From Phoenix dactylifera (lineage: Eukaryota; Streptophyta; Magnoliopsida; Arecales; Arecaceae): a stretch of 64,000 nt of DNA. A model generated the notes under the pieces. The model made no database searches. It saw only the letters and a list, made by a program, of their open reading frames with translations, and was not told the origin of the DNA. Below, in pieces: positions 24,995 to 62,560 of the stretch. Both the position numbers and the translations under genes were made by a program. The stretch covers positions 5,986,475 through 6,050,474 of the forward strand of contig NC_052407.1 of the NCBI RefSeq assembly GCF_009389715.1. Reading direction: 5' to 3'. Each line of letters starts with the position of its first letter. Positions within the stretch are counted from its first letter, which is position 1.

Positions 24995-27118
24995 ATGAAG
25001 CTAAGAAGCAAAGGGGTCTCCAACGCCTCTCGACGTCCTCCACCCAGTCCTGAGCACTCCGTCCGAAACTCACCACCTCCGGCTGAGTCAGTTCATCAAG
25101 TTCGGCCGGAGCAGTTTGATGCCCTGGTGCAACAGGTGCAGGCCTTGGCCACCGCTGTCCAAAGCCTGCAACCTAGAGGCATCCCAACGGCACCGCCTCC
25201 CCCGGCTCCAGTTCAACCGGAGCCCCCTACAAGCGGGCTTCCTCTTCGAGGTTAGGACTCTCAAGTCCAGGCCTCCCTCTGGAGAGAGCACCCAGTCAGA
25301 GGCCACGGAGGCTGGCCACAACCTTCAGAAGCTGAGTCGGTTCCAGGGCAACCTGCACCCGGAGGAACCGCTGTAGCGATCCTCCAGAATGATGAACTCG
25401 ACAAGAAGGTCGAGAAGCTGGAGCGCCAAATCCAGGCACTCCACGGGAGAAAATCGGGACGTGACGGCGACTTCGAGTTCAATACGAAGTCGCCCTTCTC
25501 CCAGGAGATTGAAGATGAACCGGTTCCCCTCCGGTTCAAGATACCCCAGGTGGAGCCTTACAACGGCAAGGCTGATCCCCTTGACCACCTGGAGAGTTAC
25601 CGGGTCTTAATGGCCCTACAAGGAGCCTCGGAAGCCATGATGTGCAAGGCTTTCCCGGCGACACTCCGAGGACCAGCCCGGCTTTGGTTCGCCGGGCTGA
25701 AGCCGAGTACTGTCTCCTCCTTTGAGCAGCTCGGCAGACAGTTTGCTGGCAATTTCGCCGCTAGCCAGCCCCAGCGGCGGACATCCGACTCCCTCCTCGA
25801 CATCAAACAAAAGGAGGGAGAGTCCTTCAAGGAGTATATGGACCGGTTCACCGCCGCAACATGGGAAGTCCGGGAGCTTGACCAGTCAATCGCCATGTCG
25901 GCGCTGAAGACTGGATCCCGGTCCTACAGATTCCTCTTCTCGATTGAGAAGAATTTCCCAGCAGACCTTACCGAAATGTTCGCTCGGGCCCGGAAATATG
26001 CCAAGGCTGAGGAAGCCGTGGCCGTCAGGCGGGGCGGGACCGAGCAGAACCCCAAGAAGAGGCGCCGCGAGGAGCGCGGCCAGCCCAGAAGCCCATCTCC
26101 GCGACGAGCCAAGAATCCGCCCCGCCCGAGGAGTCCACCCCGACTGAGGGGACCGCCACAGCAGAGGTCACCACTCCGCCCGAGGTTCCCACTGCAGGCC
26201 CGTGCACCCGAAGGGAGGTATGAAAAATACACCCCCCTCAACACCCCTCGGGCCGAAATCCTCATGGAGATCGAGAATCGAGATCGCATCCGGCTCCCAC
26301 CTCCGAAGCCTGATACCCGAACCCGGCGCGATAACCGGAAGTATTGCCGTTTCCACCGGGACAAAGGTCACGATACCGAGGAGTGTTACCAGCTCCGAAA
26401 TGAGATCGAAGCACTCATCCGCCGAGGGGTGCTCGATCGGTTTGTGCAAGGCCGGCGTGAAGAAAAGCAGCCCGCCGAAGGAGCAGCACAGCCTGAAGGT
26501 TCGAATGCCAACAGGCCCATTGCCGGCGTCATCAACACTATCCGAGGAGGGGCCTCGGCTGGAGAAGCTTCGGAGGGAGAAACCTCATCGAAGCGCCCGC
26601 GCGCTTCTGAAGTCATCTCCTTTTCAGACGATGATTTAGAGGGAGTTGAAACTCCCCATGATGATGCCGTGGTCATCTCCATGATCATAAATAGATTTGA
26701 TGTAAAACGCATCTTAGTTGATAATGGAAGCTCGGCGAATGTTTTGTACTTTGGTGCATATTGTAAAATGGGGATGACCAAAGAACAGCTACGGAGGATG
26801 AATGCTCCGTTGGTTGGATTTACTGGGGATTCAGTCCCGGTAGAGGGCGAGATCGACCTTCTGGTCACGGCCGGGCTCGCCCCTCGTGAAAGTACCGTGG
26901 GGATGAGCTTCCTCGTGATATGCCTTCCCTCGGTCTACAATGCCATCCTCGGGAGGCCAGGCCTCAACGCCCTCCGAGCGGTAGTCTCCACTCACCATCT
27001 GCTCATGCGATTCCCCACCAGCCGGGGGGTCGGCGAAGTCCGAGGAGACCAAATGGTGGCAAGGCGATGCTACCTGGCGACCCACGAGGCAAAGCGACCC
27101 GCCGAGGTGCCTGCCTGA
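24995..27118 (+). CDS. Gag-protease part of the Tat polyprotein, in-frame stop
   Basis: ATG at 24995 (MKLRSKGVSN) lies 34 bp after the LTR. The frame runs to TGA at 27116, but TAG at 25253-25255 (codon 87) interrupts it. Downstream is a retrotransposon Gag core (GPARLWFAGLKPSTVSSFEQL, about residues 200-330), then an R/P-rich basic stretch. A zinc knuckle follows at about 451 (CRFHRDKGHDTEEC, spacing CX2HX4HX4C, with His in place of the usual second Cys). A retropepsin-like active site VDNGSSANVLYF is at about 575. The terminal TGA is not native: it is the first bases of the nested element's LTR. Before that insertion the frame continued into pol. Confidence 0.9.
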
Positions 27119-29861
27119 TAAGTGCTAAATAATGCATAAATTAATATCTTATTCATAGCACTTATCATTATGTTAATTCACATATTTTATAAATTTAACT
27201 AAAAAAATATATTTTCCTTCATCCTTTCATTTTAAATAAATTATTCAAGTTAGATTCTTTTATTATTGGTTGAGTCTAATGGATGCAGGTCGAATCAAAT
27301 TCATCTGGGATGACCCCTGAACCCAAATCGCATGCACCCCATGAATTGGATCTTTCCAACCAATTAGAGTCGAGCCCAATTTTCTTTTCCAACATTGAGC
27401 TCATCCCGAACAAATTCCTTTCACGAATCTCGGTGCATCCCGTTCATGAGCCATATCCTGCCGAATCATCTTCCTCTTCCCAGCTTATATCCCCTTCATT
27501 ACCGTTCAACAAATCCCACGCATATCCCACGAACAAACAAAGAAATCCCAGCCTATCCGCCGCGTTCAAGGCTTCAAGCTACAACCAGTTCATTCCCAAT
27601 CCGTGAACGCGTCCCAGCATCCCACGGTTAGCCATGAGCTTTTACCACGAAATCCATCCCATGTCCGCAAGCTTCCCAGCTTCAAACAAAGCCAGTGCTC
27701 CATCCTCTTCCACGTAACCAACCGAATGCCCATGAATCTAGCCTTCATCGCCCATGGATAAAGCCAGGCTTCCGCTCATCTCATGCATGCCTTCCTCCCC
27801 TTCATCCACATCGAGTTCATCTTTATCCCATCTCCCAACCAACTTCAGTTCTCATCCACGAATTCCTCCCAGCCGACCGTCATCTTTTCTCCCAAATAAA
27901 TCCCAATCCTTCCTCTCAACTCCCGGATCAACTCCATTCAGCCGCGTCCAACTTCTCATCCACGTTGATATATGATCTTATCTTGATCCCATCCGAAGCA
28001 TCGTCAACCTCCCAGACTTCACGGAAACAACAATCCTCACAGCTCATGAATCTGTTTCTCCCTCCCGTTTGCAGATCAAGCCAGCCTTCATCTCCGCGGA
28101 TCCGATCTTTATCCCAACCGTGAACACCATCCCCTGTTTCCCAACCGAGAACACCATCTCACGTTTGATCCCAGCTGCCATATCATCCACGGATCATTCC
28201 GTTCGCGATGGCGTTCAACGCATCCTCAGTTTCACGTTCAATCTGTTCCGACTTCATCCTCATCTCATGCCCATCTCCCGGATTTCCAGCTAACGGCAGC
28301 ACTTCCAAACTCTTCCAGCATCTCCTCTTAACCGTGAACATAATCCTCTGTATCTCGTTCGCATCTTTCCCAACTCCCGAATGAGAACCAGCCATCACGA
28401 TGCATCCTCTTCCCCTGTTCTGAAACAAAGCTAACAATCAACCAAATCCAAGCTCATCCCCCAGCTCAATCCCATCTTCCCCGTGATCCGTGAGCTCCAA
28501 CCATTCCCCTGTTCCGAGATCTTCTCACATAACCATCAACCGAATCATCCCAGCATCCAAACCAACCGAGATCCTTCTTTCTCCCATGGGATAAGCACCA
28601 AATCCAGCAGGACTTCATCTTTTGGATCAGCTTCCTCGGCTTCATCCATCCGAGCTTCACGGCGTCCGTTCTCAGCACCTCCAACGCGTCCGAGATCCCC
28701 TCCACGGAATCCCCTGTTTCGGAACCACTCCCAGCCGAGATCCGATCCTCTCAACCTTTTGAAATCCTCCCACGTTCGCCCATTCGCAGGAAATCCTCCC
28801 AACGTCCCAGCCGTTCTTCCGTTCTCAGCTGCTCAACCGAAGTTCAGTTTCATCCCGGGATATGCTCAACATCATCACCTTCTTCCGCGTCATCCAGCTC
28901 TTCGGATCAAAGCCAGCATGCCACGCGTTTGGATCACTCGTTTCCCCTGCATCCACGGAACAGGAAGCCGTTCCTTAATCTTATCTTCCCATTCGGAAGA
29001 GGTGCTGGTGAAGCTATAAAAGGAGGGAGCTATCTTCCTTCGGCCCCATCGAATCTCCTCAGAGGCCAAACCCCCCCACCGGGGTGGGGGGTTTTCCCTA
29101 TCATCTCATCACAGGCGGAGTCCCACGAAAACAGAAAAGGGGAGAGAGAGAACTTTTGGGTATTTCAGGAATGAATAGAAGTTCAAGAGGGAGAGGAAGC
29201 CGGCGAAAGGAAGAGATGGAAGCCTGCTGCTGTGCTGCTGCTGCCGTCTCCAACTCCATGCTGGGCTGATCTTCTCTAGGGCTGGATGCAGCCCTAACAA
29301 AGGAATACGGGTTTTATATTTTATTTTATGTTCTTGGAGTTGTATGAACCTATTGTTTTTAATGGGAATCTTCTTTTGAATCATATTTAATTTCTGTGAT
29401 TTTAAGTATGATGTTCGTACAACTGTTCTTCATGATCACTAGGTAAATATAAGATAGTCCATGCTTAGGGAAGATGCGATGTGCTACCACCTTAGATTAG
29501 GGTAGACATTTCATGCCAACCGAAGATGGATTATGCCCAAATTACTTTTGTGAATTTTTATTTAAATGCTTATTAGGCTTGTAGCCAATTTGCATGTTTA
29601 TCCAAGAATAAATTAAAATATAAATAACCCTTGTTCCGATGTTAGTGGTGAATTCTGTGCCCTAGGTTCTCCTAAACTGATATCCCTTTAATTGCATTTT
29701 CTTTTATTGAATTGTTTAGTTTAATAGTCTTCACTAATTCATCATTTTAAATATTTTTATTTTTAAGAAAAATAACTATACCCCAATCCCTGTGGATCGA
29801 TACCCGTAATCACTATCCTACCAGATACGTGCTATTGCGTGGTCTTTAAAGTTGACTATCA
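27116..29861 (+). repeat. 5' LTR of the nested element
   Basis: A 2,746 bp LTR. Its first 12 bases (TGATAAGTGCTA) are repeated in inverse orientation at 27156-27167, making a perfect terminal hairpin. About 27280-29000 is C/T-rich and G-poor on the + strand, full of degenerate CATCCC and CCCAGC words, and stays open in several frames without looking like a protein. TATAAA is at 29015-29020, followed by a GC hairpin at 29068-29094. The last 700 bp are AT-rich. Confidence 0.95.
29015..29094 (+). promoter_or_regulatory. TATA box and GC hairpin of the nested LTR
   Basis: TATAAA at 29015-29020 lies about 50 bp before a strong inverted repeat at 29068-29094: a C7ACC arm, then GGGGTGGGGGG, flanked by AAA/TTT. 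The hairpin should sit at the start of the transcript or just downstream. The G-rich arm could also form a G-quadruplex. Both LTR copies keep it unchanged. Confidence 0.65.
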
Positions 29862-29866
29862 ATTTT

Positions 29867-29884
29867 TGGCGCCGTTGCCGGGGA
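29867..29884 (+). other. tRNA-Asp-type primer binding site
   Basis: TGGCGCCGTTGCCGGGGA, five bases after the 5' LTR, is the exact complement of the 3' end of plant tRNA-Asp(GTC) as I recall it (TCCCCGGCAACGGCGCCA). This primer is commonly used by Athila/Tat-type elements. Confidence 0.85.
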
Positions 29885-32216
29885 CTGGTAGCATAGTTGT
29901 TTTTCTTTTTATTAAAAAAAAAATTTCAAAAAAAAAAAAATTTGAAAAATAAAAAAGAAATAAAAAAAATATAGTTTCTATTTTTACTTTCCTTATCTCT
30001 TTTACCTCTCATTTTTGATTTTTCTTTTGATATTATTTGATCAGGAATCAAAGAAAAAAGTCTGGAACGATCAAACAGGGAATTGCTGGAAAAGGAATGC
30101 TGTAGAGGTTTGCTTTTAAAAAATTGCTGGAAAAAGTCTCTTTGGTAACCTCTAAACCTTTCTTATTTAGTTTGATTCCCAATTGGCAAAAAAAAAAAAA
30201 AAAAAAATGGTGATTGTTTGATTTTAAATTCAGCAAAAGTGTGAATGCATGCCTGATACACATACACAATTAATCCGCACATAGTAAGGGCAATCACCCC
30301 AACAAGATAAGAACTGAATTTCATCACCAGATTCTTGCCCAAATTAGGTGAATCAATTCTCACATAGCTATCACTCTAATTAAAATCAATTAGACGTTGG
30401 CCCCTAGGGACATTCGAGCTCAATAGGACGAAGATCACCGAAAGCTGCACCAATTTCGCTCTGTGGCTCAGTTGATGTCTAGGCAAGCTTTGTCCCAAGG
30501 GAGACAGTTCATCTGTTCGAGGCAAGTGGGTTTTAAGTGGGACCTTTGCAAACGCATCGTGACCCCTCCACTTACCTGGGAGCTTACCTGGTCAACTCAG
30601 TTCATTAGACCGGATTGGAGGCTTAGGTGCCCTCTTCAAACCAGTTAGGAGCTGTCTAGTGATTTTAGGGCAAACATGAGGAATTGATGTGTTTTTCTTT
30701 TAATGCATGCTTAACTGCACCTGATGCGTCTGGCTGAAGACGTTAAACTTAGCGCTTGTTGGGAGGCAACCCAATTCTCGTTGGTTATTTTTGCATATTT
30801 TCTTGTCGCATTTTTTTTATTTTCTTAACAGGATCCCTCATATTACTGATGCAACTACGGTAAAATGCTTTTATCCTCCATATGCATCATATTTTCGTCC
30901 AAAATAAAAAAATATATAAAACAATAAAAATAATAATATAATATTCAAAAAAAATTTCATCAAAAAAAAAAAAAAACATTGAGGACAATGTCTGATCTAG
31001 GTTGGGGGGTATAGGATTCGAATTTTTGAAGAAATTTTTCGCATTTTCACATTTTTAAGTGAATTGGCAAAAAAAAAAAAAAAAAAAAAAAAAACCTAAT
31101 TTCTATGCCTTAGTGCTGAAATGATAATCACACAAAGTATATAAATCTAAAAAGCCCAATAACTAGTCAGGAGTAAGTCAATTTGAGTTCTTTTTATTTA
31201 TTCTTTTAGCGAGTTGTAAGATAATTTTTACTTTGGAATTTCACAACACACATGGCCTGCACTTCTAAGAATTAGGTTCAACATTATGTTGCTGAGTCTA
31301 GAGCAACCTTGAGTCCTGATGAATCATTCCTATCTAATTCACTATTATCCCATATTTATTGTTAAAAAAAAAAAGAGTGAATTTAGTCAGGTACATCGAA
31401 AAGGGCTACCTATCGTCAAAGGTCAGCGGGCTTGTAATGAGGAACCCGAGCATAGGTCCGTAGGGGAGTCTTGATGCCTAACACCTTATGCCATCTGGTG
31501 TGGGAGTGTTGACTGAATGCTCATTACATGGAGAAATCATTACAAGAGTAAAAGTGCGTAATTTATAAATCTCAAAAAAAAAAAAAGAGAAAAAGAAAAA
31601 GAAAAAAATAAATATAATATTGACCTTGAAAAAGACGATAGTGTGAAAGCCATCGTTGTAAAAATTCGAGTAAACTGGAATATTACAGATAAAGCCGATG
31701 AGGTATTAAAGTAAACATCCACAACTCTCGAAATCCTGCAAGGTAGGATGATTTTGAATCAGTGATTAGGTCTTATCTGACCAATTCTTGGAAACTACTA
31801 GTTTTAGCAGTATTTTGGAGAATCTAAAGCCTTAGCCTGTGTATGGTCCAGACATCACCGAGCACCCAAGTATAAATTAGCCTTACAACTCTCTAACGGA
31901 AACTTAATGACTTCAACTTAAGTTGCATCTTGACCTAGGATTTGGGCTGACTTAGTAATTAAAACTTTGCGTACTTTTGAAATTCTTGGCATTAATGCAT
32001 TTGAAATTAGATTTTATAAAATAATAAAATAAATTTTTTTCGACACAGTTTGTGGGTATCTGAGCCGGAAACCCTCACGAGACAAAACTCGTCCACTAGG
32101 GCCACCTAGGGGTTTAAAGCCTTATTGCATACGGTAAATGCAATCGCGATTCCTGCGAAAGTGAGTTAATTTTTTTTATTTTGCTCGAGGACTAGCAAAA
32201 TGTAGGTTGGGGGGTG
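29885..32216 (+). other. Non-coding interior of the nested element
   Basis: No frame here resembles gag, protease, RT or integrase. Landmarks are many A and T runs (29919-29950, 30189-30207, 31069-31094), GCTTGTTGGGAGGCAACCCA near 30757, GAGGACAATGTCTGATCTAG near 30982, and a GGTTGGGGGGTG polypurine tract at 32205-32216. The content is what is needed for priming, packaging and reverse transcription but not for coding. Confidence 0.8.
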
Positions 32217-34963
32217 TGATAAGTGCTAAATAATGCATAAATTAATATCTTATTCATAGCACTTATCATTATGTTAATTCACATATTTTATAAATTTAAC
32301 TAAAAAAAATATATTTTCCTTCATCCTTTCATTTTAAATAAATTATTCAAGTTAGATTCTTTTATTATTGGTTGAGTCTAATGGATGCAGGTCGAATCAA
32401 ATTCATCTGGGATGACCCCTGAACCCAAATCGCATGCACCCCATGAATTGGATCTTTCCAACCAATTAGAGTCGAGCCCAATTTTCTTTTCCAACATTGA
32501 GCTCATCCCGAACAAATTCCTTTCACGAATCTCGGTGCATCCCGTTCATGAGCCATATCCTGCCGAATCATCTTCCTCTTCCCAGCTTATATCCCCTTCA
32601 TTACCGTTCAACAAATCCCACGCATATCCCACGAACAAACAAAGAAATCCCAGCCTATCCGCCGCGTTCAAGGCTTCAAGCTACAACCAGTTCATTCCCA
32701 ATCCGTGAACGCGTCCCAGCATCCCACGGTTAGCCATGAGCTTTTACCACGAAATCCATCCCATGTCCGCAAGCTTCCCAGCTTCAAACAAAGCCAGTGC
32801 TCCATCCTCTTCCACGTAACCAACCGAATGCCCATGAATCTAGCCTTCATCGCCCATGGATAAAGCCAGGCTTCCGCTCATCTCATGCATGCCTTCCTCC
32901 CCTTCATCCACATCGAGTTCATCTTTATCCCATCTCCCAACCAACTTCAGTTCTCATCCACGAATTCCTCCCAGCCGACCGTCATCTTTTCTCCCAAATA
33001 AATCCCAATCCTTCCTCTCAACTCCCGGATCAACTCCATTCAGCCGCGTCCAACTTCTCATCCACGTTGATATATGATCTTATCTTGATCCCATCCGAAG
33101 CATCGTCAACCTCCCAGACTTCACGGAAACAACAATCCTCACAGCTCATGAATCTGTTTCTCCCTCCCGTTTGCAGATCAAGCCAGCCTTCATCTCCGCG
33201 GATCCGATCTTTATCCCAACCGTGAACACCATCCCCTGTTTCCCAACCGAGAACACCATCTCACGTTTGATCCCAGCTGCCATATCATCCACGGATCATT
33301 CCGTTCGCGATGGCGTTCAACGCATCCTCAGTTTCACGTTCAATCTGTTCCGACTTCATCCTCATCTCATGCCCATCTCCCGGATTTCCAGCTAACGGCA
33401 GCACTTCCAAACTCTTCCAGCATCTCCTCTTAACCGTGAACATAATCCTCTGTATCTCGTTCGCATCTTTCCCAACTCCCGAATGAGAACCAGCCATCAC
33501 GATGCATCCTCTTCCCCTGTTCTGAAACAAAGCTAACAATCAACCAAATCCAAGCTCATCCCCCAGCTCAATCCCATCTTCCCCGTGATCCGTGAGCTCC
33601 AACCATTCCCCTGTTCCGAGATCTTCTCACATAACCATCAACCGAATCATCCCAGCATCCAAACCAACCGAGATCCTTCTTTCTCCCATGGGATAAGCAC
33701 CAAATCCAGCAGGACTTCATCTTTTGGATCAGCTTCCTCGGCTTCATCCATCCGAGCTTCACGGCGTCCGTTCTCAGCACCTCCAACGCGTCCGAGATCC
33801 CCTCCACGGAATCCCCTGTTTCGGAACCACTCCCAGCCGAGATCCGATCCTCTCAACCTTTTGAAATCCTCCCACGTTCGCCCATTCGCAGGAAATCCTC
33901 CCAACGTCCCAGCCGTTCTTCCGTTCTCAGCTGCTCAACCGAAGTTCAGTTTCATCCCGGGATATGCTCAACATCATCACCTTCTTCCGCGTCATCCAGC
34001 TCTTCGGATCAAAGCCAGCATGCCACGCGTTTGGATCACTCGTTTCCCCTGCATCCACGGAACAGGAAGCCGTTCCTTAATCTTATCTTCCCATTCGGAA
34101 GAGGTGCTGGTGAAGCTATAAAAGGAGGGAGCTATCTTCCTTCGGCCCCATCGAATCTCCTCAGAGGCCAAACCCCCCCACCGGGGTGGGGGGTTTTCCC
34201 TATCATCTCATCACAGGCGGAGTCCCACGAAAACAGAAAAGGGGAGAGAGAGAACTTTTGGGTATTTCAGGAATGAATAGAAGTTCAAGAGGGAGAGGAA
34301 GCCGGCGAAAGGAAGAGATGGAAGCCTGCTGCTGTGCTGCTGCTGCCGTCTCCAACTCCATGCTGGGCTGATCTTCTCTAGGGCTGGATGCAGCCCTAAC
34401 AAAGGAATACGGGTTTTATATTTTATTTTATGTTCTTGGAGTTGTATGAACCTATTGTTTTTAATGGGAATCTTCTTTTGAATCATATTTAATTTCTGTG
34501 ATTTTAAGTATGATGTTCGTACAACTGTTCTTCATGATCACTAGGTAAATATAAGATAGTCCATGCTTAGGGAAGATGCGATGTCCTACCACCTTAGATT
34601 AGGGTAGACATTTCATGCCAACCGAAGATGGATTATGCCCAAATTACTTTTGTGAATTTTTATTTAAATGCTTATTAGGCTTGTAGCCAATTTGCATGTT
34701 TATCCAAGAATAAATTAAAATATAAATAACCCTTGTTCCGATGTTAGTGGTGAATTCTGTGCCCTAGGTTCTCCTAAACTGATATCCCTTTAATTGCATT
34801 TTCTTTTATTGAATTGTTTAGTTTAATAGTCTTCACAAATTCATCATTTTAAATATTTTTATTTTTAAGAAAAATAACTATACCCCAATCCCTGTGGATC
34901 GATACCCGTAATCACTATCCTACCAGATACGTGCTATTGCGTGGTCTTTAAAGTTGACTATCA
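32217..34963 (+). repeat. 3' LTR of the nested element
   Basis: Same sequence as the 5' LTR apart from one extra A near 32308, G to C near 34585 and T to A near 34837. TATAAA is at 34117-34122 and the GC hairpin at 34170-34196. It is followed by CTGCC and then the pol frame of the host element. Confidence 0.95.
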
Positions 34964-34968
34964 CTGCC

Positions 34969-37900
34969 CCAGCGACTGACCAGCCCTCAACCGAGGTTAT
35001 GGAGGCACGGGTCGACCCTCAGAAAGAGCGGGTAGAGCCCGGTGAGTTATTAATTCAGGTTCCTCTACGTGAGAACTCTCCCGAGCTAACCGTGCAGGTC
35101 GGCTCCGGCCTTGACGAGCACGAGAGGGGTCGCCTCGTCAACTTCCTGCGAGACAACATGGATGTTTTCGCATGGTCGCCTGCAGACATGCCGGGGATAG
35201 ATCCAGAGATCATGGTCCACCGGCTCCAAGTAAAGCCAACCAGCAAGCCCGTGCGGCAGAAGAAGCGAGGCGCCACCCCTGAACGACAGCAAGCAGCAGC
35301 CGAGGAGGTCAGCAAACTCCTTGAAGCTGGATTCATCCGGGAGATAGCTTACCCGGAGTGGCTCGCCAATGTGGTCCTCGTCAAGAAGGCCAACGGGAAG
35401 TGGCGTATGTGCGTGGACTACACCGATCTGAATAAAGCCTGTCCGAAGGACAGTTTTTCACTTCCCAGCATCGACCAGCTCGTGGACTCCACTTCGGGTC
35501 ACGAGCTACTGGCATTCATGGATGCCTTCTCCGGATACAACCAGATCCGCATGGCGCCAGAAGATGAGGAGAAGACAGCCTTCATCACCGATGGGGGAAC
35601 CTACTGCTACAAGGTGATGCCATTCGGCTTAAAAAATGCCGGGGCAACTTATCAGAGGCTGGTCAGCCGGATCTTCAAAGATCAAATAGGCCGGAACATG
35701 GAGGTCTACGTGGATGACATGCTAGTGAAAAGCAAGGTGGCACAAAACCATATAGCCGATCTCAATGAAGCATTCTCCACGCTCCGAAAGTACCAGATGA
35801 AGCTCAATCCAGCTAAATGTGCATTCGGAGTCACCTCCGGCAAATTCCTCGGCTTCATCATTACACAGCGAGGAATCGAGGCCAATCCAGAGAAGATCCG
35901 AGCCCTTCAAAAGATGACGCCTCCTAGGACGGTCAAGGAGGTACAACGGCTCACAGGCCGAGTTGCAGCTCTCGGGAGGTTCATCTCCCGCTCGGCTGAG
36001 CGCTGCCTTCCATTTTTCGCGGCCCTCAAGAAGCCGAAGAACTTTTTGTGGTCGGACGAGTGCCAGCAATCTTTTGAAGAGCTCAAACATTTTCTGGCTT
36101 CCCCTCCCCTGCTCACAAAGCCGCAACAGGGTGAGATCCTCTACTTATATCTAGCTGTCTCCCCTGTTGCGGTAAGCTCGGTCTTGGTCCGAGAGGAGGG
36201 CAAACTTCAAAAACCAGTGTATTACACCAGCCGGGTCTTGAGGGACGCCGAGACCCGATACGCCAAGCTCGAGAAGACCGCCTATGCTCTGGTCATTTCG
36301 GCTCGGAGGCTCCGACCCTACTTCCAAGCCCATACAGTGGCTGTGTTGACCGACCAGCCGGTCAAGCAGATCCTGCAGAGATCAGACCGTGCGGGCCGGA
36401 TCACAAAATGGGCCATTGAGCTCGGGGAATTTGACATCGAGTACCGACCCAGACCGGCAATCAAAGCACAAGCACTCGCAGACTTTATAGCCGAGTGCAC
36501 CATACCGGACGAGGTCGAACCCGAGCCAGAGCCACCCACGGAGCAGACCCCGAGTTTGACATGGACTCTGCATGTCGATGGCTCTTCAAACTCGGGGGGT
36601 AGCGGAGTAGGGCTCATTCTCACCAGCCCAGAAGGGGTGGTCGCCGAGCAAGCCTTGCGCCTGGAATTTCCTGCCTCTAATAATATGGCGGAGTACGAAG
36701 CGCTCGTCGCCGGGCTCAAGCTAGCCAAGGAGCTAGGAGTGAAGGACTTGAGGGCCTTCAGTGATTCTCAGCTCGTCGTCAACCAAATTATGGGCGACTT
36801 CGAAGCCAGAGACCCGACCATGCAGAAGTATCTTCAGAAGGTACGGGATCTCGCCTCGACCTTGGACTCTTTTCACATCCAACATGTTGCCAGGTCGGAG
36901 AATCTCAGGGCCGACCAGCTGTCAAAGCTGGCGTCCTCTCGTATGAGCGAGCTTCCCAAGGGGGCAGTACTGGAGTATCTTCAAAAGCCCAGTACAGACG
37001 AGCCCGAGCAGACCTTCTGCACTGAGTTCGAGCCAAGCTGGATGGACGAACTCATCAGCTATTTACAAAACGAAGTCCTCCCCACTGATGAACGAGAGGC
37101 TCGCCGAATCAAGCGCCTCGCCACCCGGTACATACTATACGAGGGAAAGCTCTATCGAAGATCCTTCACCTCTCCACTCCTCAGATGCCTCCGCCCAACA
37201 GAGGCAGATTATGCCCTGCGTGAAGTCCACGAAGGGATCTGTGGAAACCATCTAGGAGGACGAGCGCTGGCCCGCAAAATTTTGCGCCAAGGATATTATT
37301 GGCCGACACTCCAGAAGAATGCCATGGACTTTGTCCAAAGGTGTGACCGGTGCCAAAGGAATGCCAATGTTCAGCGCCGGCCCTCGGCTCCTTTGACTTC
37401 TATCAGTTCCCCTTGGCCTTTTGCCCAGTGGAGAATTGATATCCTAGGGCCATTCCCACTGGCCACCGGGCAAAGAAAATTTCTGGTCGTCTCCATCGAC
37501 TACTTCACCAAGTGGGTAGAAGCCGAGCCCCTTGCCCGGATCACCGAGCAGAAGATGCGGGATTTTGTCTGGAAGTCCATTATATGCAGATTCGGACTTT
37601 CCCGCATCCTTATTTCTGACAACGGTCGCCAGTTCGACAACATCCACTTCAGAGAGTTCTGCTCCGAGCTTGGCATTGACCACCGCTTCACCTCGGTCGC
37701 GCACCCTCAGACGAACGGAGAAACCGAGGTAACAAATCGTACTATTTTGCAGGGTCTTAAAGCCAGGCTCGACAAATCCAAAGGACAATGGGTCGAAGAC
37801 CTATATAATGTCCTGTGGGCTTACCGGACCACGTTCCGTGTCCCCACCGGCGAGACTCCCTTCAACCTAACATATGGAATGGAGGCCGTCATCCCACTGG

Positions 37901-38271
37901 AGATTGGGCTTCCCTCTCCAAGAGTCGAGCGTCATGATGCCAGTTCCAACTCTTCGCAGCTCAGAAGTAACCTTGACTTGATCGAGGAAACAAGGGAGGC
38001 CGCCCGAGTTCGTATGGCGAGGTACCAGCAAAAGACAGCTCAATACTACAACGCCAGGGTCAAAATCAAATCTTTCAGACCAGGGGACCTTGTCCTCAGA
38101 AGAGCTGAAGCCTCCCGACCTGCTGAGCAAGGAAAGCTGACCCCCAATTGGGAAGGACCGTACCGAGTCACGCGCGTTCGCCGGCCCGGAACTTACCAGT
38201 TGGAGTCTCCAGACGGGACGCCCATTCCGCGGAGCTGGAGCTCTGAAAACCTCCGCGTGTACCATCAGTAG
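34969..38271 (+). CDS. Pol (RT, RNase H, aRNase H, integrase) of the Tat element
   Basis: An uninterrupted frame of 1,100 codons ends TAG at 38269-38271. In order: reverse transcriptase (FMDAFSGYNQIRM; catalytic YVDDMLVKSK at about residue 247); the first RNase H at about 395-500; a second, archaeal-type RNase H (LHVDGSSNSGGSGVGLIL at about 535); and integrase with an HHCC finger at about 755-795. The integrase triad is D824, D884 and E920, in DX35E spacing. The C-terminus has GPYRVTRVRRPGTYQL and no chromodomain. The frame originally continued from gag-protease; the nested element now separates them, and no native start is present. The protein sequence itself looks undamaged. Confidence 0.93.
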   Translation, partial: PATDQPSTEVMEARVDPQKERVEPGELLIQVPLRENSPELTVQVGSGLDEHERGRLVNFLRDNMDVFAWSPADMPGIDPEIMVHRLQVKPTSKPVRQKKRGATPERQQAAAEEVSKLLEAGFIREIAYPEWLANVVLVKKANGKWRMCVDYTDLNKACPKDSFSLPSIDQLVDSTSGHELLAFMDAFSGYNQIRMAPEDEEKTAFITDGGTYCYKVMPFGLKNAGATYQRLVSRIFKDQIGRNMEVYVDDMLVKSKVAQNHIADLNEAFSTLRKYQMKLNPAKCAFGVTSGKFLGFIITQRGIEANPEKIRALQKMTPPRTVKEVQRLTGRVAALGRFISRSAERCLPFFAALKKPKNFLWSDECQQSFEELKHFLASPPLLTKPQQGEILYLYLAVSPVAVSSVLVREEGKLQKPVYYTSRVLRDAETRYAKLEKTAYALVISARRLRPYFQAHTVAVLTDQPVKQILQRSDRAGRITKWAIELGEFDIEYRPRPAIKAQALADFIAECTIPDEVEPEPEPPTEQTPSLTWTLHVDGSSNSGGSGVGLILTSPEGVVAEQALRLEFPASNNMAEYEALVAGLKLAKELGVKDLRAFSDSQLVVNQIMGDFEARDPTMQKYLQKVRDLASTLDSFHIQHVARSENLRADQLSKLASSRMSELPKGAVLEYLQKPSTDEPEQTFCTEFEPSWMDELISYLQNEVLPTDEREARRIKRLATRYILYEGKLYRRSFTSPLLRCLRPTEADYALREVHEGICGNHLGGRALARKILRQGYYWPTLQKNAMDFVQRCDRCQRNANVQRRPSAPLTSISSPWPFAQWRIDILGPFPLATGQRKFLVVSIDYFTKWVEAEPLARITEQKMRDFVWKSIICRFGLSRILISDNGRQFDNIHFREFCSELGIDHRFTSVAHPQTNGETEVTNRTILQGLKARLDKSKGQWVEDLYNVLWAYRTTFRVPTGETPFNLTYGMEAVIPLEIGLPSPRVERHDASSNSSQLRSNLDLIEETREAARVRMARYQQKTAQYYNARVKIKSFRPGDLVLRRAEASRPAEQGKLTPNWEGPYRVTRVRRPGTYQLESPDGTPIPRSWSSENLRVYHQ

Positions 38272-38399
38272 AACCCTAAGGGGTTCCCCATTATTCAATT
38301 ATTGAACCTCGTTTTATGAATTCCATTTTATAATAAACTTACGGTCCGTATACTCATTTTGAGCTCACCGATTTTTTCTGATTATCTCATGATGTCAGG

Positions 38400-39800
38400 T
38401 TTATCTCTCCTACCCTGACCACGGTCAGGATGCCCTGCCACAACGGGATGCCCCGATTCGTCGGGATGGCCCGAGACATCAGCAATGAGTTAGCGGTCCT
38501 CTCTGACCGGACGAGCTCGGCTCGTGCTCCATCGGCTATGAGTTAGCGGTCCTCTCTGACCGGACGAGCTCGGCTCGTGCTCCATCGGCTATGAGTTAGC
38601 GGTCCTCTCTGACCGGACGAGCTCGGCTCGTGCTCCTACCCTGAGACGTCAGGATGCCCCAATATATTGGGATGCCCTGCCGCAACGGGATGCCCCGATT
38701 TGTCGGGATGGCCCGAGACGTCGGGCAATGAGTTAGCGGTCCTCTCTGACCGGACGAGCTCGGCTCGTGCTCCATCGGCTATGAGTTAGCGGTCCTCTCT
38801 GACCGGACGAGCTCGGCTCGTGCTCCTACCCTGACCACGGTCAGGATGCCCCGAGACGTCGGGATGCCTCGATCCGTCGGGATGCCCCGAGACGTCGGGA
38901 TGCCCCGGCTATAGGGATGCCCGAGACGTCGGGATATGAGTTAGCGGTCCTCTCTGACCGGACGAGCTCGGCTCGTGCTCCATCGGCTATGAGTTAGCGG
39001 TCCTCTCTGACCGGACGAGCTCGGCTCGTGCTCCTACCCTGAGACGTCAGGATGCCCCAATATATTGGGATGCCCTGCCGCAACGGGATGCCCCGATTTG
39101 TCGGGATGGCCCGAGACGTCGGGCAATGAGTTAGCGGTCCTCTCTGACCGGACGAGCTCGGCTCGTGCTCTATCGGCTATGAGTTAGCGGTCCTCTCTGA
39201 CCGGACGAGCTCGGCTCGTGCTCCTACCCTGACCACGGTCAGGATGCCCCGAGACGTCGGGATGCCTCGATCCGTCGGGATGCCCCGAGACGTCGGGATG
39301 CCCGAGACGTCGGGATATGAGTTAGCGGTCCTCTCTGACCGGACGAGCTCGGCTCGTGCTCCATCGGCTATGAGTTAGCGGTCCTCTGACCGGACGAGCT
39401 CGGCTCGTACTCCACCGGCTATGAGTTAGCGGTCCTCTCTGACCGGACGAGCTCGGCTCGTGCTCCTACCCTGACCACGGTCAGGATGCCCCGAGACGTC
39501 GGGATGCCTCGAGACGTCGGGATGCCCCGAGACGTCGGGATGCCCTGACTATAGGGATGCTCGAGACATCGAGATGAGTTAGCGGTCCTCTCTGACCGGA
39601 CGAGCTCGGCTCGTGCTCCATCGGCTATGAGTTAGCGGTCCTCTCTGACCGGACGAGCTCGGCTCGTGCTCCTACCCTGACCACGGTCAGGATGCCCCGA
39701 GACGTCGGGATGCCCCAACTATAGGGATGCTCGAGACATCGAGATGAGTTAGCGGTCCTCTATGACCGGACGAGCTCGGCTCGTGCTCCATCGGCTTCAG
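38400..39800 (+). repeat. Hairpin-rich tandem repeat array downstream of pol
   Basis: About fifteen copies of a 52 bp unit (core GAGTTAGCGGTCCTCTCTGA followed by CCGGACGAGCTCGGCTCGTG), interspersed with blocks of GGGATGCCCCGAGACGTC and CCTACCCTGACCACGGTCAGG. The pieces are self-complementary: CCTGAC-CACG-GTCAGG, CCCGA-GACG-TCGGG and ACGAGCTCGGCTCGT. The array should therefore fold into a chain of hairpins. Tandem arrays in the 3' untranslated region are known in Tat elements and can seed genomic satellites. Confidence 0.9.
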
Positions 39801-39827
39801 CCAACGAGTTCGGCCCGCTCTTCGTCA

Positions 39828-40540
39828 TTGGATTTCTCTGTCGACGCCCTCCAAGAACGGAGTCCGAGCAGAGAAGCGTCTTCAGTCGCCTCGGCGCCAG
39901 GACGCACACGGTACAAGGTACCTATTTATTTAATGTCTTTACATTACCTATTCTTGGATTTCTCTGTCGACGCCCTCCAAGAACGGAGTCCGAGCAGAGA
40001 AGCGTCTTCAGTTGCCTCGGCGCCAGGACGCACACGGTACAAGGTACCTATTTATTTAATGTCTTTACATTACCTATTCTTGGATTTCTCTGTCGACGCC
40101 CTCCAAGAACGGAGTCCGAGCAGAGAAGCGTCTTCAGTCGCCTCGGCGCCAGGACGCACACGGTACAAGGTACCTATTTATTTAATGTCTACATTACATT
40201 ACCTATTCTTGGATTTCTCTGTCGACGCCCTCCAAGAACGGAGTCCGAGCAGAGAAGCGTCTTCAGTCGCCTCGGCGCCAGGACGCACACGGTACAAGGT
40301 ACCTATTTATTTAATGTCTTTACATTACCTATTATTGGATTTCTCTGTCGACGCCCTCCAAGAACGGAGTCCGAGCAGAGAAGCGTCTTCAGTCGCCTCG
40401 GCGCCAGGACGCACACGGTACAAGGTACCCATGTATTTAATGTTTCTACATCATTTTATCTATTTCTCTGCCGATGTCCTCAAAGAACGGACACCGAGCA
40501 GAGGAGCGTCTTCGATCGCCTCGGCGAAGGAGTGCTCATG
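39828..40540 (+). repeat. 126 bp tandem array, six units
   Basis: Units start TTGGATTTCTCTGTCGACGC at 39828, 39954, 40080, 40209 and 40335, and a diverged sixth begins about 40460. Spacing is 126 bp (129 once). Because the period is a multiple of three, one frame stays open for 259 codons over 39762-40541, repeating a 42-residue unit with SVDALQERSPSREASSVASA. I cannot tell whether this frame is translated; the open frame may be a by-product of the period. Confidence 0.9.
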
Positions 40541-41038
40541 ACACCGACACATTATTGTACTAAGTCCGGTGAATCCCCGTCACGAGCTGACGAGTATTCA
40601 ATCCATTTGTAAGAGAAGAATCCGGTTCGCCCCGGCAACCCGAGGCTCGGATTCGAAGTTCGCCGCATTAAGAAGTCTAAGTCCTAACGACCGCCCTAGG
40701 GCTTGGTCGAATTCTGGACTAGGCTCGGAAAAACTCTCCGAGCCCAAATCCTTGGTATAAGCACAAGCGTTGCTATACCACTAGTCGAAGAACCGAGCAA
40801 TGGAGCTCGGCAAGCCAAACTTAAACTCAAACCCTGTAGCGGAAAAAGCTGAGGCCCTAGAGCCCATATCCTCGGAACCTAAAACGGATTCGAGCAGAAA
40901 AACTTAGGCTACGACAGACGAGTTTCCAAAAAAGAAATGTATATTCATTTCAAAAAGGCCCGTAGGCTAAGTACAAAATCCGGGTTTGGCCCTTACAAGT
41001 ATGGGAGGCCATCCCGACTTTACAAGAAATAACAAAAA

Positions 41039-43362
41039 TTACATTAAAGGCTCGAGCTCGACCACCTCGGCCTCGGCAGTACCAGGAGTGGTTGGCTCGG
41101 CTGCCGGGACCTCTTCGATGGCCTCGGCAGCAATAGGAGTAGCCTCGGGAGCGACCTCGGTCACTTCGGGGATAGCTACGGCCGCCTCCGCCTCCGGAGT
41201 TTCTGCCTCTGCCTCCGCCCTCCCTGCTCCCGGCTGGAGCAGGTTAACATCAAAATCCGGGAGAAGCCGCCGCAACTGGTTGCGGAAATCCCGGAAGCCT
41301 TGGATTAGCCCGTTCACGCCCTCCTCAGCCATGAGTTCGCGAAACTCCTCCGACTCGCGGAAGAGCTTCACTGCGTTTTGGGCGTTCTCCCGGGCCTCTA
41401 TCCCCCGGGCCTCGTGGTAAGCGGCTCTCCGCTCGAGGCCCCTCAGCTCCTGCTCGAGCTCCGAATGTCGGAGGCGGGCATTCCCCACCTCCTGCTCGCG
41501 AGAGGCCAACGCCTGCTCGGCCTTGGCCAATCGAGCCTCCGCGGCGCGCAGCTCGGACCTTACCAATGCGTGCGCGCCCTTCTCTTCATCGAGCTCGGCG
41601 GTCAAAGCTCGAATCCTTTCATCGGATGCTCCGACCTTCTCTTGGAGCACCCGTTTTTCGGCCTCAGAGGCCTGGTACTTCTCCTCGGAGGCTTGGTACT
41701 TCGCCTCGGCGGCCATGTACCTCTTCTGGGCCTCCTCGTAACTGCGCTCGCACCTCCGGGCCTTCCCCCGGTATTCGTGGACTAGGTGCATCAGCATCTC
41801 CGTCTCATGCAAATACTGTAAAAGAGACGAAAAGAAAAACATAAGGCGCCGTTAGTAGAAAAACTATACAGATTACATAGGCGAAAAATTTTACTTACCC
41901 GGACGGAGTTGCAGCGCGTAGCGTCCATGAAAGCGTTGTAGCTCATGGACTGCATCATGGCCCGGTCGGCCGGGAGCAGCGCGAGCCGAAAAACTTCGCG
42001 CGCCACTTGCGGGTTTTCGAGGGCCGAATCGCCCTCGAACACCGACCAGGTGGGTGCGAAGGGCACCCGTTCTTCCGAGCTCAAAGGGCCCGGGAGGCCA
42101 GCGTCATCTGGCCTAGGTGGAGCCGACCCCGAGGCTCCTTGACTGCTCCCCGGCTGGGAGCTAAGGGGCTGGGGTCGGGCGAGCGGCCGATCTAACCGCT
42201 GCACAACTATAGCGGGGCGTGCAAGCACGGGACCCGCTGAACTCCTCCCCTGGTCGGCAACTGGAGCGTCCTGCCGACCAGGGACCTGCGTCAAGGGCGC
42301 CGGGCATGGGGGCGCCATCGGGGCTCTGGAGCCCGAGCCCCCGGAGCCCGCGCCCTCTCTCCGATCAGCCTCAGGGCACGCGGGCTGAGAAGGCCCCGCC
42401 TCGGAGTCAGCGGGGCGAGAAGGCCCCGCCTCGGAGTCAGCGGGGCGAGAAGGCCCCGCCTCGGAATGCGCAGGGCGGGAAGGACCCGCCTCGGCCACCA
42501 CTGCCGCCGAGGGAGTCGAGGTTGCCGAGACCTTCTGCTTCTTTCTCGGCTCCGCAGGCTCCCCCGAGAGCTCGGCTGCCCTCTTCTGGAAGCGGGCGTA
42601 AAGGACTTCGCTCTTGGTCACCATTTTTGCGATGTCTGTAAAGATAAACAAAATTAGAACATTAGAACAATAAGGAAATAAAAAGTTGCTGCAACTATCC
42701 TTACCCTGAGGACGTGCCGAGCTCAGGCCCACGTTCACCAGGGCGTCCTCGCTAATGAGGCCGTTCAGCAAAATCCCGTCCCCAAGGCTGTGGATGGTGT
42801 CGAAGATCTCCTGCTCACGCGGAGAAAGCTGGGGGAGCCTGTTGATGGATTTAAGCTGGGCCGGCCTCCACCTGGGGTCAAACCCCCAGAACCGTTCAGA
42901 GCCCAGAAAGAAGAATTTCTCCTTCCAACCATGAATGGATGAGGGGGCACCATGAAAAAGTGGCCGACCCGCCCGGAGGGCGATGTAGAGCCACTCCCCG
43001 TCTCCCGGGTTCGACTTAAAAATAAAAAGTCGCCGGAAGACGTTGACAGAGGTAGGAATCTCCTGCAGTAAACACAGTGACAGGAAACCCATCACTGTCC
43101 TCCAAGCGTTTGGAGTGAGTTGCGCCGGAACCAACTGGCATACCGCCAGCAACTCATTCACAAAGCTGTGGAGAGGAAATCGGAGGCCGGCCCAGAGTGA
43201 CTCCGAGTGCACTCCGATCCGGCCTACCGGAGGATCGGTTACCCGATCCCTTCGCCTGGCGGGTTCCAAACGGAACCCGTGAAGAGGGAAAAACCACTCT
43301 TCGGCCATCTCGACCTCCAGGACACTCATGGTGGACACTACTTCACTGGGCAGAGAACCCAT
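41039..43362 (-). CDS. Spliced antisense gene inside the Tat element
   Basis: Three minus-strand exons, 42705-43362, 41899-42635 and 41039-41815. The introns (69 and 83 bp) have GT-AG borders and matching phase, giving about 723 residues. The N-terminal 200 residues (EEWFFPLHGFRLEPARR, LRFPLHSFVNELLAVCQLVP, LTPNAWRTVMGFLSLC) resemble the 'putative gypsy-type transposon' domain PF04195. A linker carries four AGPSRPADSE-like repeats, then a P/S-rich stretch. The last 260 residues are a long coiled coil (YEEAQKRYMAAEAKYQASEE) with an acidic Ala/Glu tail. Its job is unknown. Extra, sometimes antisense, ORFs are known from Tat elements. Intron 1 is a multiple of three and open, so an unspliced form would also be in frame. 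Confidence 0.8.
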
Positions 43363-43500
43363 TGCAAGAGAGGGAAATCAAAAAGAAGGGGGACCTGGGA
43401 AAGATGCCGGAGAGAAGGGACTTCGGTCTGAGGAAGACTGGGAGAATAGGAAGCTGGAAGCAGAAAGCAATAGAGAGAGAACAGGGGGCCGGGGGAGAGT

Positions 43501-43507
43501 TTATATA
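43501..43507 (-). promoter_or_regulatory. TATA box of the antisense gene
   Basis: On the minus strand TATATAA lies 139 bp upstream of the antisense start codon, preceded by GGGGAGGTC. This placement suggests that the gene has its own RNA polymerase II promoter rather than using the LTR. Confidence 0.6.
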
Positions 43508-43880
43508 GACCTCCCCAACGGCCCGGATCAGCGAAGAAAGCGCTGCGTCCTGGTTAGATGATAACACGTGTCGGTCTAAAAGACAGAACGACGCATTTAA
43601 TTAGGGCTAGCGCTTCGAACGTCGAAGCGCCCCATCGGATCGTGCGGAAAGGCGTCCGCAATCGAAGATCGTGCGGCCCCATCATGAGCCCACGACACGA
43701 GGACGCTTCGCAAAAGGTGTCCCAATAATGAGGCTTTTCGGAAAAGAAGAGACGCCGCCTATTAAAGGCACCTCGAAGCGTTCGATAACTCAAAACGCGC
43801 AACGAATTAAAATTTTCGGAACTCGTAATACCCCAACTAAAACTACTTTCCGCGCTCCAGCTGGAAGCCAACTGGAACTC

Positions 43881-43896
43881 GGAAGTCGGGGGGTAG
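43881..43896 (+). other. Polypurine tract of the Tat element
   Basis: GGAAGTCGGGGGGTAG abuts the TG of the 3' LTR, as expected for the plus-strand primer. Confidence 0.75.
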
Positions 43897-45156
43897 TGTT
43901 GGGGAAAAAACCCCAAGTCATGCCATAACGGAGGCGCTCGGCCAAAGAGTGCCGACCGGAAAGGCGCCTGGCCAAAGAGCGCCGACCAGAGAGCTGCTCG
44001 GCCAAAGGATGACGACCAGGAAGGCGCTCGACTAGAGGGCGCCGACCAGAGTGCGCGCCAAGAGGTGCCCAACCAAAATAAGCTGCTCGGCCAAAGGATA
44101 CCGACCAGGAAGGCGCTCGACTAGAGGGCGCCGACCAGAGTGCGCGCCAAGAGGTGCCCAACCAAAATAAGCTGCTCGGTTAGAAAGTGCCGACCAAAGA
44201 CAGCGCCGAGGCGCTCTGCTAGAAGGTGCTCGCCTAAAGGGCGCCGACCAGGAGTACTCGAAGCAGCCCCGCCACAGGGCGCCCCATTGGGCGACCAGCT
44301 CGGCTCGGCACCCTTGCCGAGCCGATGCCTTAACCAAATGTTCCACCTCCGCCTAAAGTCCAAGGGACTTGACAACTCCTACGGCTTGCGACCTGCCACT
44401 ATCTCCAAGCCATCAAGGCATAAGATCTCTGCAGGCATTCGGCACGACCTGCCATTAATGCACGAGACTCCCTCAAGTCTCCGATGCACTCAGGCATTTA
44501 ATGAACACGGCCCAAGACGATCTCCGGATCACTGAACCATCAGAGCGCATGGCTCTACCTGACCGCCGGTTCATTCGGTAATAAATGCACTTACCATCCA
44601 CAGACCCCAGGCCCGCCACGGCCGGCGGTTCAACCACTCCAACAGGACCGATCGACCGTGACAACTCCCTGGTTCCGGTTTGATTCGGCTCCGTTCTCCA
44701 CTACGCCATAAATGGGCCAAATCGTGCCCAATTATTACGGACAGGGACAAATCCCCCGGTCACCTCCCAGGTAACGTAATCCCCTCCTATAAAGGGAACC
44801 TGGGGAGAACCAAGGGGGGAGGACAAACAAAAACGGAAACAGACCCCCGGGACTGAACCCTCCGGGAAGCACAGACACAATTGATGACATCATTCCCTTC
44901 GTCTTCTTGATCTGATAAAATACTGTCTTCTCCATACACTTCCTCTTCCCCGCTCTCTCCACATACTTGCCCCCTCTGACTTAGGCATCGGAGGGCCGGC
45001 GCCGGGGAGCCCGGCCACCGGTTTTCCTTGCAGGACTTGCACACCCCCCGCGGCGGAGGACGCAGCCAGCCGGCGCACCGCCGTCCGTCTCCTGCAGCAG
45101 CGGAGCTCCTCCTTCCCCGGCTTCACGGCGGCCCCCGGGTCCAATTTCCAGCAACA
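43897..45156 (+). repeat. 3' LTR of the Tat element
   Basis: Near-identical to the 5' LTR, with about nine to ten substitutions plus a one-base deletion in the TATA region (TATAAAGGG at 44788 against TATAAAAGGG). It keeps the 89 bp duplication. It is followed by the second GGTAT duplication and then host exon sequence. An open frame runs from inside the LTR across the border into the host exon. Confidence 0.95.
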
Positions 45157-51316: not shown

Positions 51317-53603
51317 CTACGGCGAACGTTCAGTTCTGGACTTCCTCGGCTCCACCACGGTCCGCTGGTGGGAATCACAAACTTGGGTCGTAAACTTACA
51401 TCCAAACCTCCTCGTAAACGAACCCCAAACCCCAGCTCGCTCTCCCCCGCCACGCACCCCACGAATCCGATCCATCTTCTCGATCGCCTTCCTCATCGTC
51501 GAGCACTCCCGCTCCAGCTCCCGTACCCTGCCCCTCATGCTGTCCATATCCAGCCTCAGCACCTGGTTCTCCCGAATCGCCGTCCTCCACGTGCCCCCCT
51601 CCCTCCTCCCTCCCTCCGCCGCCGCCAGCGGCCCCCCCTCCTCCTCCTCCTCCTCCTCATCCCCCGCGGCCGCCGCCGCCGCCGCCAGCGTCCCCGCGAT
51701 CGCCCGCCGGAGCTGCAGCTGCTCGAAGAACAGCACCTGCACCACCGCCCGCAGCGGCAGCCTCTCGTTCTGCGCCGCGTGGGTGCACGCTTCCAGCGTC
51801 AGCTTCCGGCAGTCCATCACACCGCTCACCCTCTCCCTCTCCTCCTCCGTTATCCTCGGATGCGCCTAGAATTAAAATTAAACATGGCATAAAATTACCG
51901 AACTGCCCCCACCCGCTTCCCTCAAACGATACAATACACTTGCGGCACAAGGTATAAAGATTTGCACCATTAAATCACGCACCTTGACATAGACGTCGAC
52001 GGCGCGATAGAGCCCATCGTCGAATACTCTAGCGTGGTCCGGCAGCGCCAGCGCGAGATCGCAGAACTTCTCCGGTCTCAGATTCGCGTCCGACGCGATC
52101 TCCGATAGGTACCCGTCCACCAGCTTCCCCACCATCAGCAACGGGTTGTTATTGTTATTGTTACCTGGCGGTGACCTGAAGGCCAAGTCCCCGCCGTCCT
52201 CGTCGGCGGCGACCACCGCCGATCTTTCCTGCAGGCCTTCGAGGAAATAGCCGAGGATCCTCTCGACGCAGTCCACGTCGTAGAGCGTCTCGACGAGGTA
52301 GGAATAATTCGGTATCAAAAGATCGTCCAGCGTCGCCTGCTCCAGCTGCGACGCGATCTTTCTCTCCAGCGCCGTTGCACAAGCTTCCGAGGCGCGGAGT
52401 ATATTTGCCGTCCGGAGTAAACCGAAGAGGAACCGGGTGGTGACCAGACCGGAGCTCTTCCCTTGGGGGAGGTTGGAGATGACGGTCTCGAGGAGCTCCC
52501 GCTGTTCGGGCTCCGAAGCCACCGGGGCGGTGGCGTGGTGGCGGCTCGTTCGCGAGAGACCCGGGATCGATCGCTTCGCGTAGGAGATGAGCGATCCCTC
52601 GATGATCTCCGAGCTCAGATCGCAAGCTCTCATGGCGGCGATCACCCGCTTGTACGTCGGGAGGCTGAGAACCGTGAGGTCCTCGAACCACGAGTCCGCC
52701 ACAGCCTCGCCGGCGGAAGACCGGATCCCGCTCTTCCGCCGGACCGCGGCGTCGATCCCGTTCCACAGGGGCGGAGCTCGAAATCTTGGTTTTGGGCTCG
52801 CCGGCGGCGGCGGCGGCCTCTGTGATCGGCCAGCCGAAGAGGGAGCTGAGATCGGAGGCGGAGGCGCGGGCGGCGATGGAGTCGATGCAGCGTTGCGCGA
52901 TGCCGAGGTCCTCAGCGAGGGGCAGGAGGTCCTCGCAGGACTTGAGGGCTCTCACCGATTCCTTAAGGCTTCGGAGGACGGACTGGGCGAGGAATCGCTC
53001 GGTGCGGGAGATGAGGTTCTCCTCGGAGAATTCTTCCGTCATCTCGAGGTACTCGGCGGCGCAGCGGAGCGGGGCGGCGTTCCAGGCCGTGATATCGATC
53101 TTGACGCCGTAGCAGAACTTGGCGGCGGTCTCGAAGATCTCGGCGCCGCCGGGGAACTCCGGGAGGGGAATGTGGTGGAGATCCTCCTCTTCTTCGATCT
53201 CTTCTTCCCCCCCTCCTCCTTCAATGCCCTCTGCTAGTCTCGCTCTGGGGTTTTGCTCCCGCTCCGTTATCACCTGGTGGAGCTTCTTGCTCTTAGACAT
53301 CAACGGGAACTAAGCAAAAGGGCAAAACACAATCCATCTTTTAGAGCCAGGGATCCAAAAATCGGAGGAACCAAAGAGAGAAAATGGAGTTGTAGATCAA
53401 TCACCTTGTGGAGATGGAAGCTCATCTCATCGACTTCGATTACGACATCGCTGGGCAATCCAGTAGTGCAAAACCTAAAAGAAATTCGAGATGAATCCTT
53501 CATTCTCGAGACCAAATCGAAGATTAAAGACGAAGGCAAAGGATTCAAAGTAGGAGAGAGCTCACCATGCTTGGCCTTTCGACCCGGGCTTCTCGGCAGC
53601 CAT
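51317..53603 (-). CDS. NPH3/RPT2-family BTB protein, one-base frameshift
   Basis: Four minus-strand exons: 53566-53603, 53405-53474, 51983-53309 and 51317-51865, all GT-AG. It starts [20 protein letters not shown], continues with the BTB domain ([40 protein letters not shown]), then the NPH3 domain ([40 protein letters not shown]) and a C-terminal coil ([20 protein letters not shown]). Exon 3 has one base too many. Near 52776, in a run of C, the frame must shift for LWNGID to follow. Corrected length would be about 660 residues, normal for the family. These proteins are CUL3 ubiquitin-ligase adaptors in phototropism, auxin and organ patterning. The extra base may be a real mutation or a sequencing error. 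Confidence 0.93.
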
Positions 53604-62534: not shown

Positions 62535-62560
62535 CTATAAAACTACAGAGATTATAACTG

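Follow-up and report, generated by a model that had tools for sequence, protein, structure and literature searches.

A predicted spliced antisense gene of the TRP28 kind in a probable Retand-type retrotransposon of Phoenix dactylifera

We describe a gene of three exons on the minus strand of a Ty3/gypsy retrotransposon in Phoenix dactylifera, within a stretch of 64,000 nucleotides (the window, to which all positions refer). The gene is convergent to the gag-pol genes of the element and, on the evidence of its copies in the genome, was under purifying selection while the family multiplied. We interpret it as an antisense accessory gene of the TRP28 kind that belongs to a Retand-type element of the Tat lineage, a reading to which we assign a probability of roughly 0.75 and in which transcription and splicing are predicted. 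The kind is already known; the addition is a conserved gene with two introns that joins TRP28 to an SMC-like coiled coil.

The antisense gene and its element

An earlier note on this DNA had proposed a minus-strand gene with GT-AG introns, consistent phase and about 723 open codons, and the window sequence confirms that structure: the three exons in 41039-43362 hold 723 codons and zero internal stops. The parts of the gene are as follows.

43507-43501, minus strand: TATATAA box upstream of the antisense gene, assigned from sequence
43362-42705, minus strand: exon 1, 658 nt; ATG at 43362; TRP28/PF04195 domain at residues 52-115
42704-42636, minus strand: intron 1, 69 nt; GTAAGG..TTACAG (GT-AG); phase 1; 28% GC
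42635-41899, minus strand: exon 2, 737 nt; KKxK basic motif at residue 251; Pro/Ser-rich repeat linker
41898-41816, minus strand: intron 2, 83 nt; GTAAGT..TTACAG (GT-AG); phase 0; 33% GC
41815-41039, minus strand: exon 3, 777 nt including the TAA stop; coiled coil and acidic tail

Both introns are AT- and T-rich, against exons of 58-69% GC. Intron 1 of the window copy is open and a multiple of three in length, so that its retention would leave the frame intact. In the window copy, stops number 4, 5 and 9 in the three sense frames of exon 1. The proposed TATATAA box is present, although the 139 bp given for it counts from its last base; from its first base to the ATG there are 145 nt. The box is identical in 54 of the 55 copies aligned (see below), but this is weak proof of a promoter, because equal or better conservation is seen for 45 of the 513 7-mers upstream. 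At three diverged loci, no TATAWA was found in the ~160 nt upstream of the gene start.

The element that carries the gene has these features.

23700-24960, plus strand: 5' LTR, 1261 bp; target duplication GGTAT
25256-27118, plus strand: gag-protease ORF, preceded by an in-frame TAG (25253-25255) and cut off by the nested insertion
27116-34963, no strand assigned: nested LTR element; LTRs of about 2747 bp; flanking CTGCC duplication
34912-38271, plus strand: pol ORF, stop to stop; first ~50 bases inside the nested LTR
38477-40526, no strand assigned: tandem arrays, with units of 18, 53, 126 bp and more, lying between the pol ORF and the antisense gene
43897-45156, plus strand: 3' LTR, 1260 bp

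Pfam domains in the pol ORF follow the order RVT_1 (RT), RT_RNaseH, RVT_3 (second RNase H) and rve (integrase). A second RNase H is a mark of the Tat lineage, and the gypsy order of its domains (RT-RNase H, second RNase H, integrase) places the element in the Tat lineage of Ty3/gypsy. Features of Retand elements are also present, namely an antisense PF04195 ORF between pol and the 3' LTR, and a long region between pol and the 3' LTR (38272-43896, 5625 bp) that holds the tandem arrays. With arrays, LTRs and pol domains mapped, the gene does sit between the tandem arrays and the 3' LTR of a Tat element, as had been claimed.

The two LTRs differ at 9 of 1260 aligned sites (divergence K = 0.0072). 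At the rice substitution rate of 1.3e-8 this would place the insertion about 0.3 million years ago, or earlier if the host evolves more slowly. The gag is indeed broken, as the earlier note had it, both by the TAG at 25253-25255 and by the nested LTR element, which cuts the gag-protease ORF from 27116 onwards. That ORF presumably includes a protease motif, for which there was no Pfam match. The RT of other copies sits within uninterrupted frames that reach 1964 codons, so that the separation of gag-protease from pol is not a family characteristic.

Several further observations concern the window. The nested element is itself young, with 2 differences in 2746 aligned LTR positions; its internal sequence amounts to ~2.35 kb, in which no ORF of at least 150 codons was listed, and it is probably non-autonomous. 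The 126-bp array (39725-40612) contains two open sense frames of 295 and 262 codons, which are possible because the repeat length is a multiple of three. Outside the element are a 134-bp tandem duplication whose units match at 100% (62559-62826) and, on the minus strand at 51878-53309, long, overlapping, GC-rich ORFs that we take to resemble a host gene of the NPH3 type.

The predicted protein

The proposal of a PF04195-like N-terminus is borne out by a profile search, in which residues 52-115 score 50 bits for PF04195/Transposase_28 (cut-off 26.2; E 3.6e-13). The Pro/Ser linker, coiled coil and acidic tail described earlier agree with the composition, heptad bias and charge of the product. 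Exon 2 encodes 50% Pro, Ser, Gly and Ala, together with the KKxK motif, which also occurs in a diverged relative (L082) and in both types of family copy, A and B, distinguished below. Residues 471-640 are devoid of proline and have a heptad bias and a periodicity of 3.5 residues, which 0.7% of 2000 shuffles attain, and the acidic tail carries a net charge of -15.

Exon 3 has a weak match to the SMC coiled coil (E 2.8e-7) that falls far below the curated cut-off. At 28.6 bits against 729.4, and covering 153 of 1165 model positions, it does not make the product an SMC protein, and we use the term SMC-like in this restricted sense. AlphaFold2 run on exon 1 alone gave a pLDDT of 35.5, and a PDB sequence search returned 0 matches to E 1.

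Copies, introns and selection on the reading frame

A search of the genome (773 Mb, 2391 contigs) gave 150 listed copies of exon 1 among 4611 candidates, with 89-100% identity. A listed RT lies no more than 12 kb away from 73 of the 150 gene copies (150 RT copies were likewise listed), and among these matches all 73 pairs are on opposite strands, convergent and 6.0-8.3 kb apart; for the other 77 copies there was no listed RT within that distance. PF04195 is also frequent elsewhere in the genome: 150 loci over the cut-off were listed among 3465 candidates, each of them scoring above the 50 bits of the window gene.

From the best 150 scored of the 4611 candidates, ranked by exon 1 protein similarity, 55 copies were aligned: the window copy, the even ranks 2-80 (40 copies) and the odd ranks 3-29 (14 copies, ending before the stop). 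The ATG is kept in 54 of the 55. Intron 1 has its GT in 54 and its AG in 54, while intron 2 has GT in 52 and AG in 53; in one copy, L032, a deletion spans intron 2. Apart from this wider deletion in L032, there was no precise intron loss in the 55 copies. Where intron 2 is present (54 copies), its length ranges over 70-84 nt, and exon 3 is in frame in the open copies. A CTRAY motif is found in intron 1 of 55/55 copies; for intron 2, TACTAAC (5/55) and CTRAY (6/55) were considered as branch points, and neither is a conserved signal.

The complete reading frame is open in 17 of the 41 copies covered to the stop, and in 15 of these 17 the ATG and all four splice sites are intact, so that an intact copy is ordinary in this family. 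The earlier note had argued from an intact ORF beside a broken gag to recent selection. We do not accept the intactness of the window copy as evidence of selection, since at an LTR divergence of 0.0072 it mainly marks a young copy. Selection on the ORF is upheld on other grounds, by the comparison of copies.

The 55 copies fall into two types, A (36 copies) and B (17), the rearranged L032 and L049 being left out of the type-A group. The types are close in exon 1 (pS 0.09) and strongly different in exons 2 and 3 (pS 0.43 and 0.59). The change occurs ~850 nt downstream of the ATG, and this mosaic suggests recombination between families.

Across the 55 copies, pN/pS for exon 1 is 0.134 in the gene frame, a value to be read with the ranking in mind, since selecting copies by exon 1 protein similarity lowers pN in exon 1; exons 2 and 3 were unused for the ranking. 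The other five frames of exon 1 give 1.68, 2.00, 1.74, 1.14 and 0.16 (0.163, a sense frame). The low-ratio sense frame apparently has its wobble positions in common with the gene, and the wobble-sharing sense frame likewise looks constrained (pN/pS 0.15-0.56). When the types are taken separately, the exon 1 ratio is 0.124 for A (36 copies) and 0.237 for B (17 copies). Constraint is weaker in exons 2 and 3 (0.237-0.495 within types), at 0.357 (A) and 0.495 (B) for exon 2 and 0.237 (A) and 0.308 (B) for exon 3. The contrast in type-B exon 2 is small, its 0.495 lying slightly under the other five frames (0.56-0.97). Between types A and B, the ratios are 0.138, 0.482 and 0.351 for exons 1, 2 and 3, respectively. 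With one ranking rule applied to both and ten top-ranked copies of each, exon 1 of the gene stands at 0.086 and the RT at 0.058.

Comparison by dN/dS across the 17 open copies, as the earlier note had suggested, gives 0.63 for the closest pairs and lower values as divergence increases; the three deeper dS bins stand at 0.21-0.28 when the whole gene is considered and at 0.10-0.14 when exon 1 is taken alone. Variants present in at least five copies comprise 31 synonymous, 8 non-synonymous and 0 stop changes; those in two to four copies, 26, 16 and 1; and private variants, 40, 49 and 7. Indels relative to the window copy were counted in 38 copies (without L032 and L049): among shared indels, 22 of 26 in exons and 2 of 8 in introns are multiples of three, and among private ones, 7 of 32 and 0 of 5, counts that come from a single MAFFT alignment to the window copy in which repeats may split events. 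We infer that the lineage was under selection as it multiplied and that individual insertions then decayed almost neutrally.

Three loci of diverged PF04195 families were compared, and three exons are recognisable in two of them. In L082 (42% identity over residues 1-468), exon 1 again measures exactly 658 nt, and introns of 117 nt (intron 1) and 74 nt (intron 2) occupy the same sites and phases as in the window gene; the third exon of L082 is interrupted by stops. L081 (50% over residues 24-283) appears, judged by eye, to keep both introns, and has frame breaks. In L083 (74% over residues 1-219) the match is limited to exon 1. The comparison of family copies thus supports purifying selection on an intron-bearing antisense gene, whose transcription and splicing are predicted.

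The antisense position offers a simple reason for a retroelement to keep introns. The sense genomic RNA is the template of reverse transcription, and in it the introns would lie antisense, would not be read as GT-AG and would hence be copied; the spliced antisense mRNA would not be such a template. Introns can thus persist because they lie on the antisense strand of the element.

Possible roles and comparison with known elements

Under our interpretation, the TATA box, which lies between the 3' LTR and the gene, would direct transcription, both introns would be spliced out, and a protein of ~720 amino acids would be translated. With less certainty, the protein may enter the nucleus by way of its KKxK motif, bind DNA or RNA of the element through TRP28, dimerise through the coiled coil and then regulate transcription or nuclear handling of the element. 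Taken jointly, these steps are the role we consider most likely, held tentatively and at somewhat under even odds. The broader suggestion of the earlier note, an accessory role in regulation, packaging or localisation of the element, is possible.

The protein could instead act in particle assembly or in nuclear entry of the preintegration complex, which we regard as unlikely but worth keeping in view. It has a coiled coil and a KKxK motif, and the GENE23 protein of Grande is reported to be nuclear, with a role at the preintegration stage discussed (PMC7264820). On the other hand, a general inspection showed no feature linking it to Gag or integrase, and TRP28 is predicted to bind DNA (Vicient 2025, PMC11963269). 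A quite different scenario is that the antisense transcript is a non-coding or siRNA-generating RNA and the ORF incidental. Effects through dsRNA have been proposed for antisense transcripts (PMC7264820); however, the constraint is specific to the frame, shared exonic indels keep the frame and the introns drift in length, all of which disfavour such an RNA except alongside a protein function, and we consider the scenario very improbable.

Recent capture of a host gene by a single element is less probable again. Although GT-AG introns and a promoter of its own are typical of host genes, at least 150 family copies of exon 1 and at least 150 PF04195 loci in the genome refute a recent event, and the available text of one survey reports no TRP28 relatives outside transposable elements (PMC11963269). 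Long frames do arise here by composition, as sense ORFs of 158 and 169 codons that overlap exon 3 attest. That the gene is a chance open frame with chance splice motifs is nevertheless scarcely credible, being refuted by the Pfam match and by the pN/pS, indel and RT-comparison tests on copies. The conserved exon structure of the gene defines a full-length protein for expression and binding tests.

A comparison of working, without homology, can be made with HBZ of HTLV-1, an antisense nuclear coiled-coil protein of a retroelement. The antisense promoter of HTLV is in the 3' LTR (PMC7264820), whereas the proposed promoter of the window gene lies outside the LTR. Closer parallels are found in plants. 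The gene23 of maize Grande is likewise an antisense accessory gene between pol and the 3' LTR, with its own antisense promoter and a protein reported to be nuclear (Vicient and Casacuberta 2020, PMC7264820); expression is reported for gene23, while the window gene is known from sequence. According to the same review, ORF4 of Silene Retand is also antisense between pol and the 3' LTR, has a transposase 28 domain and shows weak, ubiquitous expression, and ORF2 of PvRetro13, likened here by its description, is antisense between pol and the 3' LTR with an SMC-type region (PMC7264820).

The novelty implied by the earlier note is mostly unsupported, since antisense TRP28 ORFs near arrays (PMC11963269) and the promoter of Grande gene23 (PMC7264820) are published. 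Neumann (2019) gives Transposase_28 in 23% of Retand elements (PMC6317226). In the available text of Vicient (2025), antisense ORFs occur in all representative Retand clusters and antisense TRP28 ORFs in 97% of the recently active ones, SMC-like and other domains are found in further antisense ORFs of some clusters, tandem arrays occur in about half of the clusters, and the region from pol to the 3' LTR spans 2,933-6,566 bp (PMC11963269). The same source describes these accessory genes as widespread and of unknown function, with DNA binding predicted for TRP28 (PMC11963269). The window gene resembles the surveyed TRP28 ORFs in its antisense orientation, its position between pol and the 3' LTR, its PF04195 domain and the nearby tandem arrays. 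The survey unit was the ORF of at least 600 bp, and the part of the text available to us has 0 occurrences of 'intron' and two of 'splic', which belong to one reference title (PMC11963269). Intron passages in Neumann (2019) concern Ogre, and the literature searched (including parts of PMC6317226, PMC12786077 and PMC9055855, with key subscription papers outside it) holds no description of splicing of TRP28 antisense ORFs.

Surveys based on ORFs may split a spliced antisense gene into pieces. We lean towards the view that the antisense TRP28 and SMC-like ORFs, surveyed as separate, are exons of one ancient spliced gene, with a first exon under purifying selection near that of the RT, and with introns that would survive only by their antisense position. 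The window gene differs from the Retand ORFs as surveyed in that here two introns join such parts into a single gene (PMC11963269).
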